64,000 bases of DNA from Pelagicoccus enzymogenes. Its GTDB lineage: Bacteria; Verrucomicrobiota; Verrucomicrobiia; Opitutales; Opitutaceae. The notes beneath the pieces were generated by a model. It worked only from the letters and a program-made list of their open reading frames with translations, had not been told where the DNA came from and searched no databases. The stretch covers positions 1-64,000 of the forward strand of contig NZ_JACYFG010000013.1 of assembly GCF_014803405.1 (NCBI RefSeq), in the 5' to 3' direction. This document shows, piece by piece, positions 4,456-7,899 of this stretch (position 1 is its first letter; every line of letters starts with the position of its first letter). Made by a program: the position numbers and the translations under genes.

Positions 4456-5523
4456 TCAGAGCGCGTCCGCCAAGCTTTTCACTAGGTATTCAGTATCCTT
4501 CCAGTTGATACAAGCATCCGTAATAGACTGGCCGAAACGCCGTGCATTTCCTCTATTCGAATCTTGATTCCCCTCCACCAGGTAGCTCTCCAGCATCACC
4601 CCAGCCACTCCGCCTTGCCCTCGCTCCACCTGCTCTATGACCGATCGCAAAACCTGCGACTGGCGGCGATGGTCCTTCTGCGAGTTACCATGCGAGCAGT
4701 CGACCACGACCGGCCTTTGCACTCCACGTTCCCTGCCAGCCTCTACCGCCCGCGAGACGTTTGCTGCGTCGAAGTTCGGTCCGCCGGACCCGCCCCTCAA
4801 AATCAAATGCGCGTCCCTATTGCCACTCGTCTCTACGAGGCAGGGCTCTCCCTCGATGCCTTGTCCGAAGAACGAGTGCGCAGACCGAGCAGACTGCATC
4901 GCATTCGCAGCTGACGCGACGCTGCTGTCCATCCCGTTTTTCATGCCCATGGGCATGGGCAAGCGACTCGCTAGTTCGCGATGGATTTGGCTTTCTACAG
5001 TTCGGGAGCCGATCGAACCGTATGCCATGCTGTCCTCAAGGTAGAGCGCCAGTAATGGATTCAGGAATTCAGTCGCGCAAGGGAGGCCTGCGTCGTTCAC
5101 GCGAGCGGTGAAGCGGCGAGCCATCGAAATGCCAGTGGTCGGGCTGCGATCCCCTGTTGTCATTGGATCGTAGAGCAAGCCCTTCCATCCCATAACGCTG
5201 CGGGGCTTCTCGAAATAGGTCCGCATCACGATGACCAGTTTTTCCCGCACGCTGGCGGAAAGGCGTAACAATCGTTCAGCATAGACATGGGCTGCGTTCA
5301 CATCGTCGATCGAACAAGGACCACAGACCACGACCATCCGCTTCGAGTCGCTCCCTTGCAGGATGGCTGAGACCTCTCGACGCCCTTTCGCAACGGTCTC
5401 TCTAGCCGTTGGCGAGAGCGGAATATCGCGACGAAGCTTCGAGGGCGGTTGGATGCTTTGAGTCGAGCTGCTCGATTTCGCAGGCGGAACAGCTTCTCGT
5501 TCAGGTAAGATAGTAGCGTTCAT
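4456..5523 (-). CDS. aroG: 3-deoxy-7-phosphoheptulonate (DAHP) synthase, class I AroG type
   Basis: This 355-residue enzyme condenses phosphoenolpyruvate and erythrose 4-phosphate, the first step of the shikimate pathway. Family landmarks are visible: VVCGPCSIDD, MRTYFEKPRSVMGWKGL, PMGMKNGMDSS, LILRGG, VDCSHGNSQKDHRRQ and a GVMLESYLVEGNQ to SITDACINW end. The length matches E. coli AroG (350). The start is ATG 5523 (MNATILPE). A longer reading to 5688 would translate through the upstream terminator and is rejected. It sits alone behind an aromatic leader-peptide attenuator, so the supply of charged Phe, Tyr and Trp tRNAs probably controls its transcription. Feedback specificity cannot be read. 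Confidence 0.95.
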   Translation of the reverse strand: MNATILPEREAVPPAKSSSSTQSIQPPSKLRRDIPLSPTARETVAKGRREVSAILQGSDSKRMVVVCGPCSIDDVNAAHVYAERLLRLSASVREKLVIVMRTYFEKPRSVMGWKGLLYDPMTTGDRSPTTGISMARRFTARVNDAGLPCATEFLNPLLALYLEDSMAYGSIGSRTVESQIHRELASRLPMPMGMKNGMDSSVASAANAMQSARSAHSFFGQGIEGEPCLVETSGNRDAHLILRGGSGGPNFDAANVSRAVEAGRERGVQRPVVVDCSHGNSQKDHRRQSQVLRSVIEQVERGQGGVAGVMLESYLVEGNQDSNRGNARRFGQSITDACINWKDTEYLVKSLADAL

Positions 5524-5579
5524 TTTCGTTTCTTTGAAGTATGTAGTAGCGTTTGCAGGAGAGCAGAAAACGGGCATGC

Positions 5580-5616
5580 AAAAAGCCCTGGGATTCACAT
5601 GGAATGCCAGGGCTTT
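5580..5616 (-). terminator. attenuator terminator of aroG
   Basis: On the minus strand AAAGCCCTGG (5616-5607) pairs with CCAGGGCTTT (5591-5582). One C-C mismatch then leads into a further 4-bp ATTC/GAAT stem with loop CATGT, and a run of five T (5584-5580) follows. It lies between the aromatic leader peptide and the aroG start, the position expected for a terminator used in attenuation. Confidence 0.88.
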
Positions 5617-5672
5617 ATTGCGGATATGCTCGGTTCTAATAAGATACGTCAATCTCGCCCCTGGGAATTCCA
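5600..5672 (-). promoter_or_regulatory. aroG antiterminator pairing
   Basis: The leader reading TGGAAT-TC-CCAGGG (5672-5659, codons Trp15 to Gly19) can pair with CCCTGG-C-ATTCCA (5612-5600). This makes two 6-bp helices separated by a 2x1 internal loop. The second arm is the first arm of the terminator, so the two structures exclude each other. A ribosome that reaches the leader stop codon would mask 5672-5659 and let the terminator form; a ribosome stalled on the aromatic codons upstream would leave it free. The pairing is read directly, and the mechanism is inferred from trp and phe attenuators. Confidence 0.75.
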
Positions 5673-5714
5673 GAAGTAATAAAACCAAAAGGCATAAGTG
5701 GTTGCGATTGACAT
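5649..5714 (-). CDS. aromatic amino acid leader peptide of aroG
   Basis: This is a 21-residue ORF, ATG 5714 to TGA 5649. Residues 7-15 read YAFWFYYFW, so eight of nine consecutive residues are Phe, Tyr or Trp (Phe 3, Tyr 3, Trp 2), and the ORF ends NSQGRD. It lies 125 bases upstream of aroG on the same strand and is followed by mutually exclusive terminator and antiterminator hairpins. Unlike E. coli pheL or trpL, which sense one amino acid each, it would sense all three aromatic products of the pathway. Such a run by chance in a 21-codon ORF placed before DAHP synthase is very unlikely. No strong ribosome site is visible; the ORF may start very near the 5-prime end of the RNA. Confidence 0.88.
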   Translation of the reverse strand: MSIATTYAFWFYYFWNSQGRD

Positions 5715-5723
5715 GATTCCAAA

Positions 5724-5752
5724 ATCATTGGGCGCGGTAGCCTGTAGGTCAA
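5724..5752 (-). promoter_or_regulatory. candidate promoter of the aroG leader
   Basis: TTGACC (5752-5747) and AATGAT (5729-5724) are separated by 17 bases and would start RNA only a few bases before the leader ATG at 5714. The -35 box matches five of six consensus bases and the -10 box four of six. Confidence 0.45.
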
Positions 5753-5781
5753 GCGATAAGGCCTGCCCTTGTCGCTGCGGC

Positions 5782-7899
5782 CTAAACGTACCTAGCGATC
5801 AATTGCTTAAAGCGTTCGATATTGATGGGCTTCACGAGACAATCCGAGCAGCCTGCCTGCAAGGCTCGATCCAGATCGCTCTGCATCGCATGAGCAGTGT
5901 GGGCGATCACCGGCAGATCTGGACGCCTTTGCTTGATGAGCCGGGTCGCTTCCAGTCCATTGAGAACTGGCATGCTGATATCCATCACCACCAGCTTTAT
6001 CTCCAAGTCGCGTTCAACTGCCGATACTGCGTCCTCCCCATTCACCGCGCGTATCGAAACGAGTTTCTCCTTGCGCAAGATTTCATCGACCACCTGAAAA
6101 TTCATGTCGTCGTCCTCCGCCACGAGCACTTTGCTGCCCTCTTGAATCTTTCGCTGGAGCGATTGATCGGAGTTGCCGTGGACATTGCTCTTCCCTGCCG
6201 AGACATCCCCATTGCCCGCACCATGCGAAAGGTCTCGAATCGTGAAGCGAAATACGGCCCCATGAGGATGGTTCGCCTCTATCCAAATCCTTCCGCCCAA
6301 TAGCGAAACTAAGCCTTGGCAGATGGACAAGCCCAGCCCGACACCGTCATTGCGCTTGCCTGCTTGCGACTCGCCCTGCCGGAAGCGCTTGAAAATCCGT
6401 TCACGCATCGATTCCGGCACCCCAGACCCGGTGTCGGCGACGTAGAACTCCAGCATTCCCTCTTCCCCCCGATCGTAACCAACGTGAATGCTTCCCTCTG
6501 CAGTAAACTTGATGGAATTCGAAATAAGATTGTAAACAATTTGCTTGAGGCGGGTTTCGTCGCAAAGGACGAACTCCGTTCCTTGTAATTGATTATCCAT
6601 TACAAGCTCAACCGAGCTTCCGTCGGCACCCTGGATCCGATCATGAAAAGCTGAATACGTTTCCGTGAGCATCATATGCAGGTCAAACATCACGGGCTCC
6701 ACTCTCAACTGGTTCGATTCGATTTGGGCGAGTTCGATGATGTCACCCAAGATTCGCAGGAGGTGGTCGCCATTGGACAGAATGATATCCAAGAACTTCT
6801 CGCGTTCCGCTTCGGTGCCTTCGCCAGTTTTCAGGAGTTGCGCAAATCCCATGACGGCATTCAGAGGCGTGCGAATTTCGTGTGACATATTCGCCAAGAA
6901 GGCAGATTTCAGCCGGTCGCTTTCTTCGGCTTTTTCCTTTGCTTCAACCCACTCCCTCTCTCGCAGCTTTTGCTGGGTAATATTTCTGCTGTAGACAGTG
7001 GCTCCCACAACACGACCGCTTTCTCGAATGGGCCTGAGGGAAATGTGAAAATAGAAGCGACTTCCTTTGATGTTAAAGCCTTCCTCGATCTGGAAAGATT
7101 CACCTGCCAAAGCTCTCGCGAAGCGGGGTTTCCAGGTTGGAGCGATATCGCTAGGCGATATCTCGAAAACACTGTCCCCTGCGTGTATTCGTTTTCCGAA
7201 CGCAGCCCGCATGTTAGCTCGAAACCTCGAGTTAAAGACCGTTAAGCGATAGTCCGCGTCGATCGAGAATACGATGTTCTTGGTATTCTCCAGAATGGCT
7301 TCCATGTAAGCTACGCCTCTATCAAGCAAGGATTCCGTACGCTTTCGCTCGGTAACCTCCGTGATTGCTCCCGCTATTTGCAGGTGTCCTTGCTCGTCTA
7401 ATACAGGGCATAAGGTTAGTTCAACCCAAACGACCCCTCCTCCTGGCTTTACGAAGCGACAGTCCATAGGGCTACGACGACGGCCCGACTTAGCGTGTTC
7501 GAAAGCTAGCTTGAAAGCGGCTCTGTCCTCCAAGTGAAGAGCCTGCCTAAAACGTTCGGCTGAGATGGTCTCTCCCTCGTGCTCGAATCCCAATATTTTG
7601 AATACAACATTGTCGCAACGGATTTCGTCCAGTTTGAGGTTCCACAGCAAGCCTGCTACCCCAGCCGCAGAAAAGGCGACCTGATAGGGATTCGACAAAT
7701 TTCCAGCAGGCGAGGACGATAAGTTTGAACTCGCGTCTTTGAAGGAGGACGCAAGAAGAGCGATCAGAGACACGAACAAGGGAAGGAAAACCGAGGTCCA
7801 ATCTACTTCCGGTCTCACCAGCAAAACGACCGCGCCAGCCAACACACCGCTTGCAGCTGCTAGCAGGAAACGACTTCGGTCTCGGTTCAAAAAATGCAT
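5782..7899 (-). CDS. membrane-bound hybrid histidine kinase with PAS domains and receiver
   Basis: This encodes 705 residues. Two N-terminal membrane segments (about 12-28 and 35-52) are followed by two PAS/PAC sensory domains (about 80-185 and 195-310). A HisKA dimerisation domain with FLANMSHEIRTP follows (phospho-acceptor His340), then a HATPase domain with DTGSGVP and NDGVGLGLSICQGL. The C-terminal receiver (about 590-705) has VAEDDDMN, the phospho-acceptor Asp in VVMDISMP and the Lys in LVKPI. It autophosphorylates and passes phosphate to its own receiver. No output regulator is adjacent, so the target is unknown. It is divergent from the GH130 gene across a 330-base gap. Confidence 0.92.
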   Translation of the reverse strand: MHFLNRDRSRFLLAAASGVLAGAVVLLVRPEVDWTSVFLPLFVSLIALLASSFKDASSNLSSSPAGNLSNPYQVAFSAAGVAGLLWNLKLDEIRCDNVVFKILGFEHEGETISAERFRQALHLEDRAAFKLAFEHAKSGRRRSPMDCRFVKPGGGVVWVELTLCPVLDEQGHLQIAGAITEVTERKRTESLLDRGVAYMEAILENTKNIVFSIDADYRLTVFNSRFRANMRAAFGKRIHAGDSVFEISPSDIAPTWKPRFARALAGESFQIEEGFNIKGSRFYFHISLRPIRESGRVVGATVYSRNITQQKLREREWVEAKEKAEESDRLKSAFLANMSHEIRTPLNAVMGFAQLLKTGEGTEAEREKFLDIILSNGDHLLRILGDIIELAQIESNQLRVEPVMFDLHMMLTETYSAFHDRIQGADGSSVELVMDNQLQGTEFVLCDETRLKQIVYNLISNSIKFTAEGSIHVGYDRGEEGMLEFYVADTGSGVPESMRERIFKRFRQGESQAGKRNDGVGLGLSICQGLVSLLGGRIWIEANHPHGAVFRFTIRDLSHGAGNGDVSAGKSNVHGNSDQSLQRKIQEGSKVLVAEDDDMNFQVVDEILRKEKLVSIRAVNGEDAVSAVERDLEIKLVVMDISMPVLNGLEATRLIKQRRPDLPVIAHTAHAMQSDLDRALQAGCSDCLVKPINIERFKQLIARYV

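Follow-up and report, generated by a model that had tools for sequence, protein, structure and literature searches.

Does a short and almost purely aromatic reading frame upstream of a DAHP synthase gene control that gene, and which amino acids would it read? The question is raised by aroG on the minus strand of a 64,000-nucleotide stretch of Pelagicoccus enzymogenes DNA (the window, meaning the whole stretch analysed), where the original prediction had placed an attenuator. Our reading is that of a ribosome-mediated attenuator of transcription, as known from trp, phe and ilv, with Phe, Trp and Tyr codons together in its leader, and we give this reading a probability of roughly 0.86. That all three amino acids are sensed in vivo is a separate claim, which we consider fairly probable. 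The trp/phe-type arrangement first proposed for this locus finds support in the family, where the leader, the terminator and a mutually exclusive helix 2:3 all recur.

Close relatives of this synthase were found in 17 of 252 family genomes (E 1e-95 or better) and in three of 49 genera. They comprise seven of the eight genomes of Pelagicoccus itself, two of a second genus (g13) and eight of a third (g64). All 17 loci of this clade, the window's own counted, carry an aromatic-rich leader and a hairpin, and they supply the rows (L006-L013 and L153-L161) of the alignment discussed below. The features of the window are collected in Table 1.

Table 1. Features of the aroG leader region in window coordinates
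Feature	Position	Strand	Evidence or remark
-35-like hexamer TTGACC	5747..5752	-	promoter scan: 1 found against 0.5 expected by chance
-10-like hexamer AATGAT (weak)	5724..5729	-	ends 9 nt before leader ATG
Leader peptide ORF MSIATTYAFWFYYFWNSQGRD, 21 codons	5649..5714	-	ORF list; counterparts in 17/17 clade loci, own included
Regulatory codons Y-A-F-W-F-Y-Y-F-W (codons 7-15)	5670..5696	-	F-W-F (codons 9-11) invariant in 17/17
Region 1 (CTTCTGG), last aromatic codons; partner region 2	5670..5676	-	98.3% of cells paired
Region 2 (CCAGGGGC); partner region 1 or region 3	5657..5664	-	2:3 paired in 94.1%
Region 3 (GCCCTGG), 5' arm of terminator	5607..5613	-	invariant in 17/17
Region 4 (CCAGGGC), 3' arm of terminator	5585..5591	-	3:4 paired in 91.2%
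Whole terminator hairpin GCAATAAAGCCCTGG..CCAGGGCTTTTTGC	5578..5620	-	-20.2 kcal/mol, z -3.95 (45 nt folded)
Type I-alpha DAHP synthase aroG, 355 aa (P0001), eroded inhibitor site	4456..5523	-	profiles, residue table, tree

An aromatic leader peptide

The 21-residue frame with YAFWFYYFW that had been proposed on the aroG strand is confirmed. Eight of the nine codons in its block are aromatic, a run of the kind that marks attenuators of the trp/phe/his class. Across both strands of the window, the leader is the sole site with at least seven aromatic codons per nine in a row. No stretch of this density appeared in 200 Markov sequences of 64 kb with equal dinucleotide make-up. Among 20,000 local Markov sequences of 260 nt, 26 reached at least seven aromatic codons in nine and none reached at least eight. 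On the plus strand, a 201-codon open frame (5698-6303) runs antisense over the start of the leader and the end of the neighbouring kinase gene, and is probably a chance frame.

Alignment of the 17 leaders yields the core consensus F-W-F-[YFH]-[YFTC]-F-[WG], in which the first F of F-W-F is counted as core codon 1. L156 has Gly in place of W7. The Tyr codons shift their place from row to row and are replaced at core codons 4 and 5 by F, H, T or C. Codons for Phe, Trp and Tyr all lie inside core codons -2 to 5 in every one of the 17 leaders.

Three alternative helices and a terminator

Pairing was counted over the 17-row alignment, and each helix was compared with slid versions of itself. Helix 1:2 is paired in 98.3% of cells against 39-71% for the slid versions, helix 2:3 in 94.1% against 2-57%, and helix 3:4 in 91.2% against 11-69%. 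RNAalifold recovers 1:2 and 3:4 without a supplied structure. Helix 1:2 carries only one-sided changes; it overlaps the regulatory codons in the manner of a protector hairpin, an assignment that draws on its pairing and on the blind prediction, with no two-sided changes. This third helix of the family is absent from the original prediction. Helix 2:3 shares an arm with the terminator and is mutually exclusive with it, as is characteristic of an antiterminator.

The original prediction paired TGGAAT-TC-CCAGGG with CCCTGG-C-ATTCCA. This pairing is present in the sequence and its CCAG..GGC/GCCCTGG part is conserved, while the TGGAAT/ATTCCA extension occurs only in some Pelagicoccus rows. The covariation that the prediction proposed to look for is found in the arms of the terminator and, for the antiterminator 2:3, at one pair only. 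Helix 3:4 holds 15 cells with a two-sided change, a count that none of 500 shuffles attains, and these changes fall on three pairs, a number that is as high in 260 of 500 shuffles. In its lower stem, RNAalifold marks two-sided changes between columns 86 and 127 in eight rows, mostly A-U to G-C with others too. For the single pair of 2:3, 24 of 500 shuffles are as high.

The outer pair of 2:3 changes from C-G to U-A in three rows and is unpaired in five. In L011, L154 and L161, an A stands instead of G after region 3, and both of its partners carry U instead of C. This column pair shows the three-way logic of the helices. In L006-L010, the outer pair is formed in neither helix.

An intrinsic terminator behind the leader was also part of the original prediction, and the hairpin is indeed present between the leader ORF and aroG in 17 of 17 loci. 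The T tract behind it has only four to five residues in all rows (TTTTTGC after region 4 in the window), which counts against an intrinsic terminator. Folded together, leader and terminator reach a z of -4.51. The hairpin pattern AAGCCC..GGGCTTTT has a single match in the window, compared with 0.05 expected. A scan of the window with a strict consensus terminator did not return this hairpin among its calls.

A probable leaderless start

The probable start site was missed in the original prediction and is an addition to it. TTGACC is located 36-40 nt 5' of the leader ATG in all seven Pelagicoccus rows. With a normal spacer, this distance would place the start of the transcript 0-5 nt before the leader ATG, and the leader ORF is therefore probably leaderless or nearly so, its transcript starting at the ATG or a few nucleotides before it. 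A Shine-Dalgarno-like motif precedes the leader start in two of 17 rows. The -10 boxes are weak. Rows of the other two genera have their highest-scoring hexamer pairs at varied distances of 36-52 nt; a TTTACA-like box about 36-39 nt from the ATG was recognised by eye in some of these rows.

Predicted stalling position and the probable signal

We infer the start site, the stalling and the response to shortage as follows. RNA polymerase would begin its transcript at the leader ATG or beside it, with a ribosome translating the leader. With all three amino acids plentiful, the ribosome would reach the stop codon and cover region 2, regions 3 and 4 would pair, and transcription would end before aroG. 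Should Phe-, Trp- or Tyr-tRNA run short, the ribosome would halt on leader codons 7-13 and cover region 1, leaving region 2 free. The 2:3 antiterminator could then form and aroG would be transcribed. In the absence of translation, 1:2 would form and termination would be favoured.

Ribosome positions were modelled by folding the RNA under a mask. With an assumed ribosome footprint masked, the mean P(2:3) is 0.78-0.96 when core codons -1 to 5 occupy the A site, 0.15 at core codon 6 and 0 at codon 7 and beyond, a cut-off that shifts by about one codon with the footprint. In this model, a stalled ribosome frees region 2 and a ribosome at the stop covers it, with deviations in four rows. P(2:3) is 0.00 in L008 at codons 4-5, where the model wants it high. 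Values against the model are also obtained in L158 (0.13 at W2 and 0.02 at Y4), in L155 (0.23 at codon 5) and in L156 (0.49 at codon 4). Ribosome-free RNA prefers 1:2 in nine of 17 rows, 2:3 in six (L007, L011, L013, L154, L159 and L160) and neither in two. Since these preferences are split, termination without translation is not predicted at equilibrium for every row. The permissive stretch, with codons for all three amino acids inside it, gives the element an anatomy that suits an OR gate, in which any one shortage would stall the ribosome.

A narrower reading would keep the attenuator and let it answer mainly to Phe, or to Phe and Trp, with the Tyr codons as passengers. We regard it as possible but unlikely. 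It draws on the invariance of F-W-F beside Tyr positions that wobble and are replaced at core codons 4 and 5, and on the aroR leader of C. glutamicum (F-Y-F), which is reported to respond to Phe limitation, Tyr being without effect (PMC11802643). However, none of the 17 leaders is without a Tyr codon in the permissive stretch, even though the codon sits at different places, a pattern that looks like selection for its presence.

The sensing of charged tRNA by codons can also be set against nascent-peptide arrest, the type to which TnaC and ErmL belong. Here, the FWF..FW peptide would stall the ribosome together with a free aromatic amino acid or another ligand. The order F-W-F-x-x-F-W is nearly invariant, beyond what simple codon sensing needs. 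Its last two residues, however, are encoded by core codons 6-7, which double as region 1 of the RNA, and this explains their constancy. After W7, moreover, the frame changes while the RNA is kept. L006-L008 differ by one nucleotide and have region 2 in another frame, so that core codon 10 is CAG and the peptide continues Q-G-R in these three rows, as against CCA or CCG with P-G-A or P-E-A in the other 14; the RNA motif CC[AG]G is retained. This suggests that the RNA rather than the peptide is selected there. An excess of free ligand would also be expected to switch a biosynthetic gene the wrong way. Altogether, arrest seems improbable for this leader.

Still more improbable is a T-box-like or metabolite-binding riboswitch that drives the terminator while the ORF is incidental. 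Such an RNA would also present conserved pairs upstream of a biosynthetic gene. Conservation is nevertheless confined to the codons and the arms, and most of the 40 nt between regions 2 and 3 are variable. With a limit of E 10, searches against Rfam returned only two matches, both at chance level (15.7 and 12.4 bits) and neither of them to a leader family. The Rfam leader families proper (Trp_leader RF00513 and relatives) gave no match up to E 10, and we assign the element to no Rfam family.

Upstream gene context

A hybrid histidine kinase gene, assigned by family matches, lies upstream of the leader on the minus strand (5782-7899), and a like kinase frame occupies the same position and strand in L006-L009 and L011. 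Eleven of the 17 loci (L010, L012, L013, L153-L157 and L159-L161) have their nearest long upstream frame on the opposite strand, and in L158 an opposite-strand frame overlaps the element; all of these are open frames, not annotated genes. Other open frames of the genus are directly followed by similar hairpins (L190 and L191), and the hairpin thus looks like a local terminator form. The proposal that it is the ordinary terminator of an upstream gene, with the aromatic ORF a chance frame, can point to these hairpins and to a kinase gene that ends at 5782 on the same strand (with a like frame in L007-L009 and L011), but we dismiss it almost entirely, as the element persists in the 11 loci where the upstream frame runs the other way, so that the terminator is not that frame's own, and the chance control yielded no case in 20,000 of at least eight aromatic codons in nine.

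Distribution of the element

Read as an attenuator, the element is linked to one synthase clade among those scanned. No relative was found that conserves this aroG and lacks an aromatic-rich ORF, a combination on which the original prediction had staked itself: leader and terminator accompany the gene in 17 of 17 loci. The only one of the eight Pelagicoccus genomes without the leader (G005) is also without this aroG and gives no match to the model described below. The highest number of aromatic codons in nine is six in one clade row, seven in four, eight in ten and nine in two. Upstream of 114 other DAHP synthase genes from the phylum, a sample among the matches listed in which at least two genes stand twice (L002/L208 and L021/L220), no aromatic-rich leader was found and the maximum was five in nine, reached by nine of the 114 regions. 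These controls (24 + 90 regions) covered up to 650 nt upstream, less in L019, L024 and L274, and were scanned in the same way as the clade loci.

A covariance model of the element matches at full length in 20 of the 252 family genomes (E 1.7e-15 or better). The matches are the 17 clade loci and three more g64 genomes, and each is positioned before this synthase or a remnant of it. In G226, the element is matched by the model and aroG is cut by the end of the contig. Several copies are damaged. G217 (L179) has a broken aroG behind an intact leader, and in G218 (L180) leader and aroG are both broken. In G220 (L159, L048), a stop or frame change divides aroG into open frames of 145 and 270 codons behind an intact leader, the result of either decay or faulty assembly.

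Outside the three genera, the strongest model match among 372 genomes of the order (E 1.9e-6) reads as an unrelated terminator; RNA-model searches of more than 40 genomes used stricter filters, with which weak members could be missed. Eleven weak model hits (G405, G259, G209, G350, G417, G251, G339, G041, G004:C93, G000:C6 and G001:C31) were rejected, as they look like ordinary terminators. On reading, none of the eleven showed a leader with at least seven aromatic codons in nine, and G041 held one five-in-nine frame. At the protein level, six of 387 phylum genomes have a match at 1e-94, three of them belonging to the clade and three to another clade, which carries Asp146.

The element is also present in named records of Pelagicoccus mobilis (L091), Verrucomicrobiae bacterium DG1235 (L038) and Opitutaceae bacterium EAC85 (L048). 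Its core is found in Pelagicoccus sp. SDUM812005 (L122), where the sequence ends soon after. These cases come from a pattern scan of named genomes (at least 117 stretches) in which the element was recognised by eye among the 121 matches listed, with frames of fewer than 80 codons, and which cannot show absence elsewhere.

A synthase with an eroded inhibitor site

The aroG product scores 386.9 bits with TIGR00034 (cut-off 173.2) and 425.9 bits with NF009395, over the cut-off of that family. Two further proteins of the genome match type I-alpha DAHP synthase, and neither of their genes has such a leader. A tree was built from 43 rows, E. coli AroF, AroG and AroH included. The clade is a deep one that occupies one side of a single branch (support 100/100), and the other two synthases of the genome are placed next to AroF (L001) and next to AroH/AroG (L002). 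The genes of these two (G000:C50:602137-610976; L001 and L002/L208) are located about 7 kb apart on opposite strands. The AroG/AroH-like paralogue has Gly at position 150, and the other paralogue is AroF-like.

Inhibitor-site residues, numbered as in E. coli AroG, were counted in 16 clade proteins; L159 and the copies of G217, G218 and G226 were left out, as they were from the tree. The clade has Asn at D146 and Ala at P150 in 16 of 16 proteins, Gln at Q151 in none, Ser at S180 in three and Phe at F209 in six. Its paralogues keep D146, Q151, S180 and F209 in 24 of 24, with Pro (19) or Gly (5) at position 150. The same four residues are kept in 32 of 32 phylum rows, some of which are the same genes as in the paralogue set. 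The residues that mark a feedback-inhibited enzyme (D146, P150 or, in AroH, Gly, Q151, S180 and F209) are as a set missing from the clade, in a comparison of these five positions, the N-termini with D6 and D7 being mostly unaligned. Asn146 is shared by the copies of G217, G218, G226 and G220, and the decayed G218 copy has Pro at 150. C61, R92, K97, R165, K186, R234, H268, E302 and D326, which we take to be the catalytic residues of DAHP synthase, are retained in 16 of 16.

D146N and P150L are reported to make AroG completely feedback-resistant, and Q151, S180 and F209 are also involved (PMC9529685). In yeast DAHP synthases, inhibition is relieved by the equivalent Asp-to-Asn change, at an Asp described as highly conserved among enzymes of this type (PMC10349828). 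With its inhibitor-site residues lost and its catalytic residues kept, the clade synthase is predicted to be active and insensitive to feedback inhibition. Its supply would then be set by the attenuator.

That the leader precedes this clade, and that the 114 other genes scanned have no aromatic-rich leader, suggests that regulation moved from protein to RNA. It is an even call whether control of entry into the shikimate pathway shifted from enzyme to RNA, with the inhibitor site lost, a three-input OR-type attenuator as the only brake seen, and the enzyme serving as a feedback-blind reserve beside AroF-like and AroG/AroH-like paralogues that have inhibitor sites. Judged from sequence, the enzyme is best read as a feedback-blind isoenzyme that would be produced upon shortage of an aromatic amino acid. 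In the same genome, the regions before trpE, a pabB-like gene and pheA (L289, L290 and L291) showed no convincing Trp- or Phe-rich leader, so that attenuation is seen at one aromatic gene among those looked at. Frames with two or three W before two of these genes were taken as chance.

Comparison with known systems

The mechanism itself is known. Three things appear to be new: a leader with all three aromatic amino acids, the phylum, and the coupling to an enzyme that lacks its inhibitor site. Searches of an open-access library showed no description of a leader in which Phe, Tyr and Trp codons are read jointly upstream of DAHP synthase, and no such attenuator for Verrucomicrobiota. If the reading is correct, a single leader peptide would naturally sense the whole aromatic family through three inputs, and it might serve as a biosensor that reports when any aromatic amino acid is short. 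Nature would also have traded allosteric control for attenuation at one enzyme step, in a form that is fixed in three genera.

The aroR-aroF attenuator of Corynebacterium glutamicum was reportedly described by Neshat et al. in 2014. This DAHP synthase attenuator is reported to have Phe and Tyr codons and to answer to Phe and not to Tyr (PMC11802643, PMC4046766). Like the present element, it has a leader with aromatic codons (Phe-Tyr-Phe) upstream of DAHP synthase and attenuates by ribosome stalling. Unlike it, aroR belongs to an actinobacterium and has no Trp codon named in the text consulted, and the two are likened by description, not by sequence.

The trpL-trpE and pheL-pheA systems of E. 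coli (on the regulatory codons of trp attenuation, see PMC1183508) share with the element a leader ORF, hairpins 1:2, 2:3 and 3:4, and a terminator before the first structural gene. They serve one amino acid each, whereas the leader of this clade has codons for three, precedes one gene only, that for the entry step of the common pathway, and is probably leaderless. The ilvGMEDA operon of E. coli, with a leader of 32 amino acids of which 15 are branched-chain residues (PMC6123439), likewise has a single leader in which codons for more than one end product of the same pathway are read. It differs in concerning the branched-chain pathway and in its longer leader, the aromatic family here being gathered in a block of 7-10 codons.

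The enzyme, too, has a counterpart. Metabolic engineers make the same kind of change by hand (AroG D146N), and the clade therefore offers candidate feedback-resistant enzymes. Engineered feedback-resistant AroG (D146N, P150L and S180F), as listed in PMC9529685, is altered at the positions that are changed in the clade, but the changes of the clade are natural, fixed and coupled to an attenuator.
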